64,000 nucleotides of DNA from Gemmatimonadota bacterium (GTDB lineage Bacteria > ARS69). The notes under the pieces were generated by a model that was given only the letters and a program-made list of their open reading frames with translations, searched no databases and was not told the origin of the DNA. Shown piece after piece: positions 3,045-63,820 of the stretch (positions within the stretch are counted from its first letter, which is position 1; each line of letters begins with the position of its first letter). Position numbers and translations under genes: made by a program. The stretch covers positions 1 to 64,000 of the forward strand of contig JASLLL010000004.1 of assembly GCA_030747075.1 (NCBI GenBank). The letters run 5' to 3'.

Positions 3045-3418
3045 GCCTGCAGGACATCCGACCACGCTCCGGTCCCGCACGAATCTACGACCAGTGCGCG
3101 TGGTTTGCCTAGAGAAAGGTGGAGTTCGCCCCGCGGGCAAAGGGGGGTCGCCTTGACGCTGGCCAAGGCGAACGATTACCATAGAGACAGTTCGGACGAG
3201 GCAGTTCAGTCTGCCGTCCGGCACTGATTTCGGTCCCTGCATTGCATGATCGCGGGCTGTGCTTCATCGGAACCTGTTGATTCCGAATCGGGAGCCTAAC
3301 ATTCGGCTGGGATGTCGGACCCCCTCCGGGGGGAGGACGGAACGGGTCGTGCGGGCACCCACCTGGTGATTCGGTTCTATGAACTCGGTCCCGGCCGGCA
3401 TTGTGGGGTCCGGCCTTC

Positions 3419-53814: not shown

Positions 53815-54279
53815 ATGCAGCCCAAGGACCGAACGGTGCGCGCGCTGGCGGCGGATGCCGGAGTCCCCGCGCGCGAAGCGGTGCGCATTCTCCGCAAGGG
53901 CGGGTTCAAGGTGAGCCACCCCAGCGCCCGCGTCTCGGGCGTGGATCTGAAGCGAGCGCGTGAGGCTCTGGGCCTGCGTGGGCGGGCGCGTCAGGCAGGT
54001 GCCGACGCGCGTGTTCTGACGCGCGAGGAACTCACCGACCGGATTCTGAAGGGGCTCTGGGTAAAGAAGAAGGTGGCGAAGAATCGCACGACGGCCATTG
54101 AGAACAGCTGGGGGCGGAGTGTTCCCTCTCACCAGAAGGGGCAGGCGCAACAGCTGGTCGAGGAGTTCCTGACGGCGGGCCTCATGGGCGAGAAGATGAG
54201 TCAGGGTCGGCGCCATGTCTGGATCACCGGGGAGGGGGTCGCGTTTCTGAATCCGGATGACGGGAGTGACGCAGCCTAA
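53815..54279 (+). CDS. Small basic protein with IF2_N-like start and winged-helix-like end
   Basis: A 154-residue protein. Residues 5-50 (TVRALAADAGVPAREAVRIL) resemble the IF2_N helix bundle that binds RNA or ribosome parts. A basic middle (GLWVKKKVAKNRTTAIENSW) and a C-terminal part that may form a winged helix (GRRHVWITGEGVAFLN) follow. It may bind nucleic acid. It follows the crotonase gene closely and overlaps the convergent aminotransferase stop by four bases. No family name can be given. Confidence 0.65.
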   Translation: MQPKDRTVRALAADAGVPAREAVRILRKGGFKVSHPSARVSGVDLKRAREALGLRGRARQAGADARVLTREELTDRILKGLWVKKKVAKNRTTAIENSWGRSVPSHQKGQAQQLVEEFLTAGLMGEKMSQGRRHVWITGEGVAFLNPDDGSDAA

Positions 54280-55352
54280 CCGCGCCTCTCGTCCAGCGCT
54301 TCGCCCAACCGGTGAAGTGCGCCCCGGACGGTCTCTTCCTGTCCGCCGACGCTGACGCGAACCCACCCGGGCTGGCCGAAGTGCTCTCCGCCGGCGACCA
54401 CCACGCCGCGTTCCGCGCTCAACCGTTCCGCGAAACTTGCCGTGTCCGGCACATGGCGAAGACGCAGGAATGCGTTGATCCCCGCCGCCGGACGAACCCA
54501 GCTGACATCGTCACGGGATTCGATCCACTCCGACAGGGCCGCCGTCCCGCGCATCGCGGCTTCGCGTGCCTTCCTTCGGAACGACTCGCGATCTGCAAGC
54601 ACTCTCACCCCGGTGGCCTGCGACCCATGAGAACCGTCCACCGCCAGATAGAACGAGAACTCCTTCACCGGCGCGAGGGCTTCCGGATTCCCCAGCACCC
54701 ACCCGACACGCAGCCCGCCGAAACCGTATACCTTGGTGAGCGAAGCGGTTGAGAAGAAGTTCGGTGAATAGGCGAAGCCGGGCCGTGCGCTCTCGGCGAA
54801 GTCGAGAAAAACCTCGTCGAGCAGGACACGGAAGTCCCGTTCGGCTGCGAGTTCCGCAAGGCCCGTGAGGAATGTGTCCGTGAGATCCGCACCGGTCGGG
54901 TTGTGGAGGCGCGTCAGGACGACGGCCGCGACGGGGGTGCGCGTGGCACGCTCCACCTCCGCGAGCGAAGGTTGCCACCCGTTCTCCGGGCGTCGCGGAA
55001 TGCGTTCCACGGCGGCTCCGTGAAAGCGCGGGATCTCGTGCAGCGGCGGATAGGTGGGAGTCTCCACGAGAACGCGATCGCCCGGGCCGGCGAGGGTCGC
55101 GAGGACGGCATAGTTCGCGAGGCTGGTGCCTTCCGTGACGAGCACTCCATCAAGGTCCGCGCCGTACGCTCCTGCAACGGCAGTGCGCAGTTCCTCCAGA
55201 CCGTGGAAGTTCGGGCCGCCGTACCGGGCGGGTGAGGGCGGATACTCCTCCGGGGACGGCGCGGCCATCCCGCTTGCTCCGAGGCACCACTTGTGGGCGC
55301 GAACATGTCTCTTGGCCCAGTGCATGAACCGGAATGTCTCTACTCGTCTCAC
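54276..55352 (-). CDS. PLP-dependent aminotransferase, class I/II
   Basis: A 358-residue fold-type I aminotransferase. Visible are VLVTEGTSLANYAVL, LTRLHNPTGADL, LLDEVFLDF and the PLP lysine in ASLTKVYGFGGLRVGW. The final Arg that binds the substrate carboxylate is in GWVRVSVGG. The substrate is unknown; the N-terminal lid is short. GTG 55352 has GGGAGG directly upstream and is better than ATG 55364. It is divergent from the selenoprotein gene with a 117-nt gap. Confidence 0.9.
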   Translation of the reverse strand: MRRVETFRFMHWAKRHVRAHKWCLGASGMAAPSPEEYPPSPARYGGPNFHGLEELRTAVAGAYGADLDGVLVTEGTSLANYAVLATLAGPGDRVLVETPTYPPLHEIPRFHGAAVERIPRRPENGWQPSLAEVERATRTPVAAVVLTRLHNPTGADLTDTFLTGLAELAAERDFRVLLDEVFLDFAESARPGFAYSPNFFSTASLTKVYGFGGLRVGWVLGNPEALAPVKEFSFYLAVDGSHGSQATGVRVLADRESFRRKAREAAMRGTAALSEWIESRDDVSWVRPAAGINAFLRLRHVPDTASFAERLSAERGVVVAGGEHFGQPGWVRVSVGGQEETVRGALHRLGEALDERRG

Positions 55353-55469
55353 GGAGCCTCCCATCGCGCGGACATCTTGCCACGGGAACGGCCGGTGCGT
55401 AACCTGCCCTGATCTGAAATCTCACCCGAACCGATCCCCGGTTCGTTCATCCCCCCAGGAGGTCTTGCC

Positions 55470-55703
55470 ATGAAGGTGTCCATTCTCTTTTGCCAGATGT
55501 GAAACTACGAACCCATCGCCGCCAGTCTGGCGGCCGCGATCAAGGCGGCGTTCCCCGCCAGTGTGGAGCAGATCCCCGGATCCGGTGGTGTCTTCGATGT
55601 CACGGTCGACGGCAGGCTCATCTACTCGAAAGACGAGACGGGGCGTCACATCCGGGACAATGACGAAATCCTGGACATCTTGCGCGCCGGGAAGGGTGGC
55701 TGA
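55470..55703 (+). CDS. SelW/Rdx-family selenoprotein with in-frame UGA (CQMU)
   Basis: A 77-residue protein when the TGA at 55500-55502 is read as selenocysteine. It begins MKVSILFCQMUNYEPIA, the CxxU redox motif of SelW/Rdx proteins at residues 8-11, and continues with AAIKAAFPASVEQIP, GGVFDVTVDGRLIYSK and ETGRHIRDNDEIL, all family hallmarks. AGGAGG lies seven bases before ATG. Sixteen nt after the UGA a perfect hairpin GCCGCCA-GTC-TGGCGGC (55518-55534) fits a bacterial SECIS. A normal finder would miss it. It likely acts as a thiol/selenol redox protein. selD lies 7 kb away. Confidence 0.92.
55518..55534 (+). promoter_or_regulatory. Bacterial SECIS-like stem-loop of the SelW-type gene
   Basis: GCCGCCA pairs with TGGCGGC across a GTC loop, within the coding sequence 16 nt past the UGA. 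SelB-binding hairpins of bacteria sit at this distance and usually show a G and U in the apical loop, as here. Confidence 0.75.
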
Positions 55704-55711
55704 TCAGCGAC

Positions 55712-57274
55712 ATGACCGGATCCTCCCCGGAAGGGTGCCTGACGATCGTCTTCACCGGAGACCTGCACGGACGGGTCAGCGGGACGGACCCGTACACTCT
55801 CCAGCCCTTTCCGGGCGGGGCGGCCCGCGCCGCGACCCACATTGCCGGAGTTCGCGAGAGAGATCCTGAAGCGGTCTTTCTGGACCTCGGGGATCTGGTG
55901 CAGGGAACGCCGATGTCGACCGATCACGCTCTGGGGCGAGGGCTTGGCGGCCCGCACCCGATGCTTCGTATTCTGCACGAACTGGGGTGCGACGGCTTTG
56001 TCATCGGCAACCACGAGTTCAACTTCGGGATGCGCTGGGTCGAGGAGTTCCGGCGGACGGCGCGCTTTCCTGTACTCGCGGCGAATGTGCTTGGCCCGGA
56101 CGGTCGGCCGGTCTTCCAGCCCACGCTCATGCTGGAGCGCGGGGGCCTCCGCGTGGCGGTGCTGGCCGTCACGACGCCGCAGGTTCCGCGCTGGGAAGAG
56201 CCGTCCAATATCGAAGGCCTGATCTTCCGCGACGCCACCGAAACCGCACGCGAGTGGGTGCCGAAGTTGCGGCGCGACGCGGATGCGGTGGTGGTGGCCG
56301 CGCACATGTCGTGGGAAGGCGTGACGGACGGCGGGCTGGAGACCCCCGAACCGCCGGAGAATGATGTCGCCCGAATGGTCCGTGAAGTTCCGGGGATCGA
56401 CTGCATTCTGATGGCGCACACGCATCGAGTGGAGGAAGGAGCGCGTCGCGGAGGGACACTGGCGGTGCAGGCCGGGTGGGGGGGGCGCGCCGTCGGTGAG
56501 GTGCGGCTCGAACGCGATTCGCACGGTGTGATCCGGGCGTCATCGATCGTCCATCAATCCAGACTGGATACGCCGACAAGCGCGGCGATTCTCAATCTGG
56601 CCGCATCCGAAGAGGAAACAGCGCGTCTTCGTCTGGACCAAGTGATCGGTGAGGCGTCCGGGGAGTTTCACGCAAGGGGAGTTCGTCACGGAGAGACTCC
56701 GCTTCGAAGTCTCCTGCACCGCGCGCAACTGGAAGCGTCCGGGGCGGATCTGTCATCGGCCGCGCTCTTCCGTGAGGAGCAGGTCATTCCGCCGGGGCCG
56801 GTCACCGTGCGGGATCTCTACCGGATGATCCCGTTTGAGAATCGGATGGTCGTGGTGGAAATGGATGCGGGCGGGGTTCGCGAATACCTGGAGGAAACGG
56901 CGCGCGCCTGGGCCGGGCCCGGACAGAACGGGGAGCCCGCGCCCCTGAACCCGCGCTTTCACCTCTACAATCACGACACCATTGCCGGTGTGGAGTACCA
57001 GGTGGATCCCGCACAGCCGGTCGGGAGCAGAATCCGGGATCTGACTTTTGGCGGGGAGAAGGTGCCCGCGCGTCAGAAGTTCACACTGGCTACCACAAAC
57101 TACCGGGTGTCAGGCGGCGGGGGATATCGTGTGCTCAAGACCGCGAAAGTGTTGCGCCGAACGGGCGATGAGATTCGCGATCTCGTGATCTCGTATGTTC
57201 GCAGGCACGGCACCATTGACCCGGTGATGCCGGGTGCGTGGCGGCTTGTCGGATCTCAGTCCGGATCAGCCTGA
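55712..57274 (+). CDS. 5'-nucleotidase / 2',3'-cyclic phosphodiesterase family protein
   Basis: A 520-residue two-domain protein: calcineurin-like metallophosphoesterase (TIVFTGDLHGR, LDLGDLVQG, GNHEFNFG, MAHTHRVEEG) and C-terminal 5'-nucleotidase substrate domain (LRSLLHRAQLEASGADLSSA, TTNYRVSGGGGY). It should remove phosphate from nucleotides or related esters using two metal ions. Unlike most members it has no signal peptide, so it may be cytosolic. ATG 55712 is nine bases after the selenoprotein stop, so both could share a transcript. The stop overlaps the convergent LOG gene by nine bases. Confidence 0.88.
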   Translation: MTGSSPEGCLTIVFTGDLHGRVSGTDPYTLQPFPGGAARAATHIAGVRERDPEAVFLDLGDLVQGTPMSTDHALGRGLGGPHPMLRILHELGCDGFVIGNHEFNFGMRWVEEFRRTARFPVLAANVLGPDGRPVFQPTLMLERGGLRVAVLAVTTPQVPRWEEPSNIEGLIFRDATETAREWVPKLRRDADAVVVAAHMSWEGVTDGGLETPEPPENDVARMVREVPGIDCILMAHTHRVEEGARRGGTLAVQAGWGGRAVGEVRLERDSHGVIRASSIVHQSRLDTPTSAAILNLAASEEETARLRLDQVIGEASGEFHARGVRHGETPLRSLLHRAQLEASGADLSSAALFREEQVIPPGPVTVRDLYRMIPFENRMVVVEMDAGGVREYLEETARAWAGPGQNGEPAPLNPRFHLYNHDTIAGVEYQVDPAQPVGSRIRDLTFGGEKVPARQKFTLATTNYRVSGGGGYRVLKTAKVLRRTGDEIRDLVISYVRRHGTIDPVMPGAWRLVGSQSGSA

Positions 57275-57931: not shown

Positions 57932-60262
57932 TCAGTCGCCCGGCGCGGAACGGGTTGCGGCGGTGCGTGCTGCGGCGACGCGGAGTTGCCCGACGGCAAT
58001 CCCGCCGTCATTGGGGGGAATCCCGTGATGGGAGAAGACCCGGAACCCCCCGGCAGACAAGCGGGAACGGACTTCCCGCTCCAGACGGAGATTCTGGAAG
58101 CACCCGCCGCTGAGAACGACCCGCTCGATCCCCGCAATGCGCGCGGCTGCCAGTGCCGCGTTGGCGAGTGCATCGTGGAACCGCGCCGAAATCTCGCCGA
58201 TGCTCGCCCCTTGGCACGCGTCTTCGACGATGGCACGAACGGTCGGTCCCCAGTCGATCATGGCGATTCCTCCCGGGCCGCGATCCTTCTCCACCGGCAT
58301 CGGGTAGGCGGCGGCCTTTCCGGGAGCATCGTCCGCCGCGTGCTCCAGTGCCATCGCGGCTTCGGCCTCGAAGGAACTCACCTTGCGAAGTGCGGTCAGT
58401 GCCGCGACCGCGTCGAAAAGTCGACCCATGCTGGTGGTCACCGGCGCGTGGATCCCGCGTTCCAGCATGGCGAGGAGCGCGTGGGTTTCCTCCGACTCGA
58501 AGAGGCCGACCGGCGGTTCTGCGCTGGGACCGTCCAGTTCGTGAAGGAGGCCGAGCGCGCTTCGGCGAGGTTCGCGAACCGCGGCGTCACCACCCGGGAG
58601 ACGAAAAGGCCGGAGCGTGGCAACTCTGCGGAAGCCTTCGACCGTGCACGCAAGGCACTCGCCGCCCCAGATGGTTCCGTCGGTGCCGAAACCCGTGCCG
58701 TCCCACACCAGCGCGAGCACCTCGCCCTCCAGTTCATGCTCGGTCATGCATGCGATCGCATGGGCATGGTGGTGCTGTACGGAGATTCGCGGGATGGCGA
58801 ATCGTCCCGCGAGAAGCTCCGCATGGCGCGTGGAGGGATAGTCCGGGTGGAGATCGCACGCGATGATCTCCGGGGTGACCTGATAGAACCGGAGCAGATC
58901 GTCCACGGTTCTTGCGAACAGATCCCGCCCGCCGGGGCTCTCCAGATCTCCGATGTGCGAACTGACGACGACCCTTCCTCCGACGGCCAGGGCGATCGTC
59001 GACTTCAGGTGCCCGCCGAGTGCGAGGACGGTGCAATCCGGGCCGCGAACCGGGAGCGGGCGCGGTGCGAACCCGCGCGCCCGCCGGAGGAGCGCGACTC
59101 CGCCGTCCTTCCACCGCGCGACGGAGTCGTCCACGGCACGAACGATGGGACGGTCGTGGGTCAGGAACCGGTCCGCGATGCCGTTCAGACGCTGGACCGC
59201 CTCTCCCGTCTCCGTACACATGGGTTCTTCCGAGAGGTTCCCGCTTGTGCAGACGACCGGGCGGCTCACGACGCGCAGCAGCAGGTGGTGGAGCGGCGTG
59301 TACGGAAGCATGAGGCCGAGTTCGGGATTCCCCGGGGCCACCGCGTCCGCGATCCGCCCGGCGGCGTCACCCTTGCGGCGAAGCAGAAGGATCGGCGCTT
59401 CCGGCGATTCCAGCACGCGCGTCTCGTCGTCGGAGACGGTGCAGAGCTCTCGCGCCGCCTCAAGATCGACGGTCATCACGGCAAACGGCTTGGCCTCCCG
59501 TCGCTTGCGTTCCCGAAGCCTGAGGACGGCGTTTTCGCCAGTCGCGTCGGCCAGCAACTGAAACCCGCCGATTCCACGGAGGGCGAGAATGCCGCCTTCA
59601 AGGAGTACGCCTCCTGCCGCATCCAGCGCGGGTTCGTCGGTGGCGAGCGGCGCCCCCGAGGCATCCAGAAGCTCCAGGCGAGGCCCGCACGCCGGGCAGG
59701 CGATCGGTTGCGCATGGAAGCGACGGTCGAGCGGATTCTCGTACTCCGCCCGGCACTCCGGGCACATGACAAACGCGGCCATGGAGGTGGCGTCTCGATC
59801 GTACGGGAGGTTTTCGACAATCGTGAGGCGCGGGCCGCAGTCGGTGCAGTTCGTGAAGGGGTATCGGTGGCGGCGCTCCCCGGGAGTGGTGATCTCCGCA
59901 AGACACGCGGGGCAGGTGGCGATATCCGGAGGGATGGCGGGCCGGGCTGCGCCGCTGTTCTCGCTTTCGACAATGAGGAAGGACGGTGGCCGGGTCGCGT
60001 CGTCCCGCTCCCGCACGGGCGTGATCTCCACCGATTCCACGCACTCAACGGCGGCCTGGGGCGGAGCGGAGTCGGCCAGTTCCGCAAGGAACGACCCCAC
60101 GGCGGCGCCGTCTCCTTCCACCTCCAGCTTCACGCCGTCCGGGCCGTTCAGCACCCACCCTTCCAAACCCCGGGCGACCGCGATCCGATAGACAAACGGC
60201 CGAAAGCCCACGCCCTGCACCACGCCGCGCACGCGGACGGCGCATCTCCTTCGTAGCGTCAC
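57932..60262 (-). CDS. hypF: Carbamoyltransferase HypF, [NiFe]-hydrogenase maturation
   Basis: Makes carbamoyl-adenylate from carbamoyl phosphate and passes the carbamoyl group to HypE, the source of the CN ligands of [NiFe] hydrogenase. The 776-residue protein has all four parts: acylphosphatase (VQGVGFRPFVYR), two zinc fingers (CPACLAE, CTDCGPR, CPECRAE, CPACGPR), a YrdC domain (KRREAKPFAVMT) and a Kae1-like domain with HHHAHAIACM and VLSGGCFQN. GTG 60262 starts just before the acylphosphatase. No other hyp gene or hydrogenase is in the window. Confidence 0.95.
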   Translation of the reverse strand: MTLRRRCAVRVRGVVQGVGFRPFVYRIAVARGLEGWVLNGPDGVKLEVEGDGAAVGSFLAELADSAPPQAAVECVESVEITPVRERDDATRPPSFLIVESENSGAARPAIPPDIATCPACLAEITTPGERRHRYPFTNCTDCGPRLTIVENLPYDRDATSMAAFVMCPECRAEYENPLDRRFHAQPIACPACGPRLELLDASGAPLATDEPALDAAGGVLLEGGILALRGIGGFQLLADATGENAVLRLRERKRREAKPFAVMTVDLEAARELCTVSDDETRVLESPEAPILLLRRKGDAAGRIADAVAPGNPELGLMLPYTPLHHLLLRVVSRPVVCTSGNLSEEPMCTETGEAVQRLNGIADRFLTHDRPIVRAVDDSVARWKDGGVALLRRARGFAPRPLPVRGPDCTVLALGGHLKSTIALAVGGRVVVSSHIGDLESPGGRDLFARTVDDLLRFYQVTPEIIACDLHPDYPSTRHAELLAGRFAIPRISVQHHHAHAIACMTEHELEGEVLALVWDGTGFGTDGTIWGGECLACTVEGFRRVATLRPFRLPGGDAAVREPRRSALGLLHELDGPSAEPPVGLFESEETHALLAMLERGIHAPVTTSMGRLFDAVAALTALRKVSSFEAEAAMALEHAADDAPGKAAAYPMPVEKDRGPGGIAMIDWGPTVRAIVEDACQGASIGEISARFHDALANAALAAARIAGIERVVLSGGCFQNLRLEREVRSRLSAGGFRVFSHHGIPPNDGGIAVGQLRVAAARTAATRSAPGD

Positions 60263-60290
60263 CCGGGAACCACCTCTCTCCGGGGCGTGT

Positions 60291-60761
60291 TCAGGACGCG
60301 TCCCGCGCCAGATTCCGCATACGGGTCCGCGACCAGTGGAGTCTTTTCTGAAGGACATGGAGGAATCGCTTCAGGAGTTCGTACCCGAGTTCGGGGTCAT
60401 TCTCGCAGTGTGCGCGCAGGTAGTCGCCGTCGAGCGTGAGCGTCTTCGTGACCGTGACGGCGCGTGCGTCGAAGTGCCAGTTGTAAGGCGCCACGAGCCA
60501 GCCCCAGCCGATGACTTCACCCTCTCCCAGAGCCGCCACCTGAATCGGCCCGCGTTCCTCGATGTGTGTCTCCAGCGACACATGGCCATGCCGGACGAGA
60601 TACCAACTGTGGGCCTCTTCTCCTTCCCGGCCGAGGAAATCTCCGGGCTGGAAAGTCACCGTTCTGGCGCACCCGGAGAGGAACGACAAGTGCCGGTCCG
60701 CGAGACCATGCAGGAACGGATGATCTCTCAAGAGCCGTTCCACATTCTCGTTCGCATTCAT
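60291..60761 (-). CDS. Cyclic-nucleotide-binding (CRP-like) single-domain protein
   Basis: A 156-residue protein with a cupin-like cNMP-binding fold (FQPGDFLGREGEEAHSWYLV, VAALGEGEVIGW). There is no C-terminal HTH, so it is not a normal transcription factor; the end is a helix (KRFLHVLQKRLHW). The cNMP phosphate-cassette Arg is not obvious (GWGWLVAPYNWHF), so ligand binding is uncertain. ATG 60761 follows AAAGGAG. It lies 28 nt upstream of hypF, probably in one operon with it, and may tune hydrogenase function. Confidence 0.85.
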   Translation of the reverse strand: MNANENVERLLRDHPFLHGLADRHLSFLSGCARTVTFQPGDFLGREGEEAHSWYLVRHGHVSLETHIEERGPIQVAALGEGEVIGWGWLVAPYNWHFDARAVTVTKTLTLDGDYLRAHCENDPELGYELLKRFLHVLQKRLHWSRTRMRNLARDAS

Positions 60762-60983: not shown

Positions 60984-61362
60984 GTGGATTCAGGCAAGTC
61001 TGCTCTCATCCTGATTGGCTACCAGAACGACTATTTCGCTCCGAACGGAATCCTCCACCATGTGATCGAAGAGGCGTCCCGTGTGTCGGGAGTTCTTCAG
61101 AACACGCTGGACCTGGTGGAGCGCGTCAGTTCGACCGACATGCTCATCGTCTCCACCCCGATTCTCTTTACCGAGAACTACGAAGAACTGGTGGACCCGG
61201 TGGGGATTCTCAAGACCATCAAGGAAGTGGGCGCGTTCCGTGAGGACACGCAGGGTGGAAAGACGATCGATGAGATCGCCCGGTTCGGCGATCGCATTGT
61301 GGAGGTTCCTGGAAAGCGGGGACTGAACGCCTTTTCCAATACCGAACTGGAGGCACTCTATG
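60984..61362 (+). pseudogene. Isochorismatase-like gene, truncated
   Basis: GTG 60984 with GAGGT upstream begins a good isochorismatase-family N-terminal half: ALILIGYQNDYFAPNGIL, VERVSSTDMLIVSTPI, VEVPGKRGLNAFSNTELEAL. The family then needs a segment with catalytic Cys (like AGAVTSxCID), but near 61356-61365 the sequence turns into a different gene. The frame runs on without family sequence to 61580, into the convergent isomerase gene. The catalytic Cys is absent, so the product should be inactive. Confidence 0.75.
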
Positions 61363-61503
61363 TCCGGGTACACGGAGGAGAGGCTGGGGAGGTCTGGCGC
61401 GGGCGGTCAGGGGACGGCGTTTCTGCGAAAGCCGTTCACTCCGGCGGAACTGACGCTGACCGTGCGTCGGGTTCTGGATGCGGCCGCCCCGGGAGCGCCC
61501 TGA
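61360..61503 (+). pseudogene. Tail of a response-regulator receiver domain
   Basis: In a frame different from the isochorismatase piece, the sequence reads MSGYTEERLGRSG, then AFLRKPFTPAELTLTVRRVL and DAAAPGAP, stop. This is the beta4-to-alpha5 end of a receiver from a hybrid kinase or regulator (MSGYTE, FLxKPFTPxEL). The front 70 or so residues are missing. It marks a deletion or recombination joint with the isochorismatase-like gene. Confidence 0.75.
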
Positions 61504-62764: not shown

Positions 62765-63820
62765 CTACTCCTCGACGAGGATTCCGTCGCCCTCCGTGAT
62801 CTCGCCGATGACGGCCGCCGCCGGCGTCGAGGCAGCCTCCAGGCGAGCGAGGAGGTCGTCGGTGGTGCCGGGAGGTGCCACGAGCAGGAGACCGCCGGAG
62901 GTCTGTGCGTCCGCAAGAACAAGCTGGTCGGCCTCTTCCACGCTGTCGGAGAAAGCGACACAGCCCGAGAGTGTGCGAAGCGTTTTCCGGGTCCCCCCGG
63001 GCGCGACTCCATCGGCGGCCAGATCCCGGGCTCCATCGAGAACCGGCACACTCCCGACAGAGACCCTTGCGCCACATCCGGAGGCTTCCAGCACCTCCGT
63101 CAAGTGCCCGAGAAGTCCGTATCCGGTGACATCGGTGGCGCAGACGATCCCGGTCTCCGTCAGCGCGCGCCCCGCCTCGCGGTTGAGTGCCGCCATGACG
63201 CGAATGGCCTCTCCGGCGCCGGCCTCGTCGATGCGCTCCTGCTTGAGCGCCGTCGTGATGATCCCGGTGCCGAGCGGCTTCGTGAGAATGAGCCGGTCCC
63301 CGGGCCGCGCTCCCTCCTTCCGCGCGATCTTCTCCGGATGCACCCGGCCGACGACCGCCAGCCCGTACTTGGGCTCCGGGTCATCCACCGTGTGCCCTCC
63401 GATGACCACCGTGCCCGCTTCGGCAGCTTTTGCCGACCCGCCTTCCAGGATGTCGCCAAGGACCGACAGCGGAAGCTCTTCCGACGCGGCGGGGAACGCA
63501 ACGATGTTCATCGCAGCGAAGGGTTCTCCCCCCATGGCGTACACATCGGAGAGCGCGTTGGCGGCGGCGATCTCGCCGAAAGTGTGCGGGTCGTCGACGA
63601 CGGGGGTGAAGAAGTCGAGCGTCAGCACAAGTGCCAGATCGTCGGAGATCCGGTAGACACCGGCGTCGTCCGGCGCCGCGGTTCCCACCAGAACGGCGGG
63701 GTCCGTGTGGGGCGTGAGACGGCGCAGAACCTGCGCGCGAAGATCGGCCTGACCGATCTTCGATGCTCAACCCGCGCAGTGGGAGTATGCGGTGAGGCGA
63801 ATCTTCCGGGAAGGAGTCAC
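62765..63820 (-). CDS. selD: Selenophosphate synthetase, selenocysteine-containing (in-frame UGA)
   Basis: Makes selenophosphate from selenide and ATP, the selenium donor for Sec-tRNA. Starting at GTG 63820 (GGAGG upstream) and reading the TGA at 63769-63767 as Sec gives 351 residues, the family length. The N terminus reads VTPSRKIRLTAYSHCAGUAS and then KIGQADL, matching the SelD active site G-[C/U]-x-x-K with Sec18 and Lys21. Further on come VGTAAPDDAGVYRI, LVLTLDFFTPVVDDP, ANALSDVYAMGG and GGHTVDDPEPKYG. A perfect 10-bp hairpin starts four bases after the UGA. An annotation starting at GTG 63688 would lose the catalytic residue. Confidence 0.95.
63738..63762 (-). promoter_or_regulatory. Bacterial SECIS-like stem-loop of selD
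   Basis: On the minus strand CGAAGATCGG, loop TCAGG, CCGATCTTCG: ten perfect pairs starting four bases after the UGA (63769-63767). It is inside the coding frame and would be the SelB target. It is closer to the UGA than in the SelW-type gene. Confidence 0.75.

Follow-up and report, generated by a model that had tools for sequence, protein, structure and literature searches.

SelW-like proteins outnumbered every other selenoprotein family in the Sargasso Sea set of 2005, where a glutathione interaction was also reported and where the CxxU sequence of the family is taken as a redox motif (PMC1088965). Cys forms of these proteins are rare in Sec-decoding organisms, as found in the same study and in a bacterial survey of 2006 (PMC1088965, PMC1794560). 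Here we describe a gene of this kind in the window, i.e. the whole 64,000-nucleotide stretch of DNA that was analysed. The locus is almost certainly a real gene for a SelW-like selenoprotein of the Rdx family that is translated through an in-frame UGA codon. The features of the window are collected in Table 1.

Table 1. Coordinates of the selW-like gene, its signals and other features of the window
Feature	Position	Strand	Remarks
6S RNA	3231-3413	+	RF00013, 52.8 bits, above gathering score
PLP-dependent aminotransferase (Aminotran_1_2)	54276-55364	-	divergent neighbour; Pfam 150.8 bits
75-aa ORF overlapping selW	55422-55649	antisense	
Shine-Dalgarno sequence AGGAGG	55457-55462	+	7 nt separate it from the ATG
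selW-like gene	55470-55703	+	ATG at 55470; 77 residues, then stop TGA at 55701-55703
UGA predicted to be read as Sec	55500-55502	+	residue 11 in the CxxU motif (CQMU, residues 8-11)
Candidate bacterial SECIS hairpin GCCGCCA-GUC-UGGCGGC	55518-55534	+	perfect 7-bp stem, G first in loop
5'-nucleotidase / metallophosphoesterase family gene	55712-57274	+	downstream gene; Pfam Metallophos and 5_nucleotid_C
hypF	57935-60358	-	767.5 bits; hydrogenase maturation gene between selW and selD
tRNA-Arg (CCG)	59030-59119	-	ARAGORN call inside hypF
Region with isochorismatase-like N-terminal part	60985-61503	+	by reading
selD (selenophosphate synthetase)	62765-63820	-	TIGR00476; motif CAGUASKIG; start GTG inferred
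In-frame UGA of selD	63767-63769	-	TCA on + strand

The first-pass annotation of this DNA had proposed a frame that has a ribosome-binding site, passes a UGA within CQMU and continues for 66 further residues, and our analysis recovered each of these elements at the positions listed in Table 1. The read-through protein is MKVSILFCQMUNYEPIAASLAAAIKAAFPASVEQIPGSGGVFDVTVDGRLIYSKDETGRHIRDNDEILDILRAGKGG, and Shine-Dalgarno-like sites also precede selW in most of its relatives. Among the table-11 open reading frames of at least 60 aa in the window, none reads the selW frame, in agreement with the earlier expectation that standard gene calling would leave it blank; overlap with selW is seen for the antisense ORF of Table 1 and for an ORF of 102 aa that lies in a different frame. 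The gene offers a clean example of how standard table-11 gene calling would cut a frame at UGA.

The 77-residue translation was compared with SelW and Rdx profiles, a check that the annotation had itself proposed, and two of them matched across the UGA: Pfam Rdx (PF10262) with 61.6 bits against a cut-off of 22.6, and TIGR02174 with 51.6 bits against a curated cut-off of 34.2. The closest named model, the equivalog NF041051 (SelTWH_Campy), aligns with residues 3-70 at E = 1.6e-22; since its score of 79.5 bits lies below the cut-off of 88, the protein was not assigned to this narrower group.

The AlphaFold2 model of the protein (16 sequences) has a mean pLDDT of 93.3 and a predicted secondary-structure order of beta-alpha-beta-beta-beta-alpha-alpha. 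Within this predicted thioredoxin-like fold, CQMU comes after strand 2-8, which is the placement of the motif in SelW-like/Rdx proteins. The solved structures nearest to the model are all SelW-related, with TM up to 0.87, and a sequence search of solved structures returned MIEN1, SelW-related bacterial proteins and mouse SelW. This set, comprising 2fa8 from Agrobacterium, 2obk, 2p0g, 3dex, MIEN1/C17orf37 (2ljk) and mouse SelW (2npb), shares its fold with the window protein and is homologous to it in sequence at 21-31% identity. On the strength of the model, the product can confidently be predicted to adopt a SelW-like domain of the thioredoxin type.

We further examined the conservation of the UGA codon. 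The phylum sample consists of five genomes, and the searches at family, order and phylum level all return the same five; selW is present in four of them, each with one TGA. A wider scan covered 84,980 species, each represented by one genome, with an alignment of three members as query. It yielded 21 loci across several phyla, from Desulfuromonadales, Desulfobulbaceae, Armatimonadetes, Planctomycetota, Anaerolineae, Bacillales (Fictibacillus, Salibacterium and Alteribacillus) and two further MAGs. Codon 11 is TGA at all 21 loci and also in a contig-end fragment of genome G002, i.e. in 22/22 close relatives, which are the kind of sequence that such a scan by its nature picks; one of its two patterns ended before codon 11, so that this pattern is unbiased for Sec vs Cys. 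The aligned relatives are 43-68% identical to the window protein. In comparisons with two of them, the differences after the UGA are distributed over the three codon positions as 12/10/23 and 16/9/21, and this dominance of third positions is as expected of a sequence that would be protein-coding. At the Sec position of the window protein, the two solved chains that were aligned with it (2ljk and 2fa8) carry Cys. The homologues with Sec or Cys at this position that the annotation had called for are therefore at hand, and the in-frame UGA is both conserved and aligned with such residues, as is required of a bacterial selenoprotein gene.

A second and divergent Rdx-like frame is present in genome G002 (L026, 1501-1659 and beyond), with a TGA in a CPTU motif. 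It reads MKIEIVYCPTUAGNQQKAASLAARIEKKLG... and shares 44% identity with the window protein across 52 residues, possibly representing a second SelW-type selenoprotein in the phylum.

The perfect hairpin reported past the UGA was found with its 7-bp stem, and 15 nt lie between the two elements. Taken as stand-alone evidence, the hairpin of the window was rejected as insufficient: its folding z-score of -1.24 is not significant, stems of 7 or more accompany 7.6% of the window's TGA trinucleotides when the same rule is applied, and an equally good stem arises in 22% of synonymous recodings of the window protein anywhere in the allowed range (4% at the exact place).

The comparison across relatives gave a different kind of evidence. 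A hairpin of 6-7 bp keeps a fixed place, and its loop is GUC, with G first, in most rows, in line with the small apical loop containing a guanosine that has been published for bacterial SECIS elements (PMC1088965). Among 17 distinct relatives, 90.8% of the pair cells are standard vs 73% in shuffles, and pairing falls to 26-50% when the hairpin partner is shifted by 1-3 columns. Compensatory changes occur in five of the seven pairs, in 18 cells, a cell number that none of 500 shuffles reached; the rows share ancestry, so these changes are not a count of independent events. A set of 16 loci from several phyla retains 95 of its 96 core pairs, vs 67.5 +/- 3.5 (SD) in recodings that preserve the protein, with 0/20,000 trials reaching 95. 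The SECIS element therefore rises above chance, because it is conserved across phyla beyond what the protein sequence forces, and compensatory changes between phyla would be hard to explain otherwise. Thus, the small-G-loop hairpin just after the UGA that characterizes bacterial selenoprotein genes is documented by the covariation and recoding tests across relatives.

The annotation had also named selA, selB and selC as genes to look for, and all of them were identified, together with selD, in the genome, whose size is 2.67 Mb and whose completeness is estimated at 100%; it therefore contains the set expected for a bacterial selenoprotein. The genes comprise a tRNA-Sec with anticodon UCA (73 bits), selA (535.5 bits), selB (main part 329.5 bits, rising to 357.3 when a C-terminal piece in the same frame is included) and selD (TIGR00476, 363.9 bits, with one TGA inside), the three protein genes scoring above their curated cut-offs. 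The selenouridine synthase gene (ybbB/mnmH) was looked for in the genome and not found. The selD gene, located about 7 kb from selW in the same window, carries an 11-bp hairpin directly after its UGA, and three more genomes from the phylum likewise have selD genes with UGA; standard annotation probably truncates this gene as well. A loose screen of the window for UGA read-through frames gave 42 candidates, among which only the SelW and SelD frames belong to families recognisable by reading alone.

Several other features of the window were recorded. The presence of hypF suggests that the genome may encode a NiFe hydrogenase at another place. The tRNA-Arg called inside it by ARAGORN is probably a false positive, since an Rfam search has no tRNA at this place. 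In the isochorismatase-like region the N-terminal part (MDSGKSALILIGYQNDYFAPNG...) appears to continue into a tail which, read in another frame, resembles the C-terminus of a response-regulator receiver domain (LRKPFTPAELTLTVRRVLD), and the region is perhaps a truncated or fused remnant.

How the UGA is read can be judged from these results taken together. If it were a genuine stop codon, or had arisen by a sequencing error, the locus would be a decayed Rdx pseudogene or a misread Cys gene, a reading with which a single in-frame stop near the start and a hairpin within chance in the window itself would agree. The recurrence of this TGA in 22 further genomes, the coding constraint past it, the covarying hairpin and the complete Sec machinery speak against it; an assembly error is unlikely given the conservation of the TGA in other genomes, and for the same reason we consider the pseudogene reading refuted and give it next to no credence. 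Genome-wide reassignment of UGA, or its read-through by a near-cognate tRNA (tRNA-Trp, for example), is possible in principle for any in-frame UGA. However, long neighbouring genes are open under table 11, the stop codon of selW is itself TGA, the in-frame UGA occupies the place of the catalytic Cys, and both a SECIS element and tRNA-Sec are present, which leaves decoding of this kind exceedingly improbable.

Under the favoured reading, selenocysteine insertion, ribosomes would start at the ATG and reach the UGA of the CQMU motif, where SelB bound to the downstream hairpin would bring selenocysteyl-tRNA-Sec, so that Sec would be inserted as residue 11 and translation would continue to the terminal UGA, serving as stop. 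The product would be small and thioredoxin-like, and its Cys8/Sec11 pair probably alternates between a reduced form and a selenenylsulfide, with Sec11, by analogy, as the presumed attacking and Cys8 as the presumed resolving residue. Such a protein may be a reductase that depends on thiols or glutathione and works in oxidant defence or in the repair of oxidised thiols. A redox role is reasonably probable. In-cell insertion of Sec is putative, as are the substrate and the redox partner. Another possibility is that the protein is a real selenoprotein serving a specific partner, perhaps tied to the aminotransferase or the 5'-nucleotidase, rather than general peroxide or thiol defence. Aminotransferase orthologues adjoin selW in three relatives (50-58% identity), with an enoyl-CoA hydratase-like frame located beyond, and the 5'-nucleotidase gene starts 8 nt past the selW stop; at locus L029 a relative of the nucleotidase sits further downstream of selW. 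However, the aminotransferase gene is divergently oriented, related genomes retain gene order by descent, and neither neighbour adjoins selW at the loci from other phyla, some of which are short. We therefore regard a dedicated partner as rather unlikely, and a general redox function as the preferred explanation.

The short FCxxU form of SelW recurs in several phyla that are distant from each other, its SECIS has a GUC loop that is nearly constant, and no Cys version was seen among the relatives found. Instead of recent Cys-to-Sec conversions, it could represent an old lineage that has been Sec-only since its origin, or one that is passed from phylum to phylum as a Sec gene; we put this forward as a tentative scenario that is somewhat doubtful.

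One of the selW-bearing genomes of the phylum, MAG M3-44_Bin_119, was placed in Orphanbacterota by the 2022 paper on new FCB phyla (PMC9727166). The genome of the window falls into the same family-level group and is therefore most probably a member of Orphanbacterota as well. Among the papers searched, none mentions both Orphanbacterota and selenoproteins. The present results indicate that this small, uncultivated marine-sediment phylum uses selenocysteine and has at least two selenoproteins. The window gene shares with the known bacterial SelW-like selenoproteins the CxxU motif, the short Rdx domain, the Sec machinery and a SECIS immediately past the UGA with a G in a small loop, and it differs from them only in its sequence and in its host lineage, a small candidate phylum. 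As bacterial SelW-like selenoproteins have been known for two decades, it joins an already known kind and leaves existing knowledge of SelW unchanged; what is new here is only that a SelW-like gene occurs in a little-studied marine-sediment phylum.
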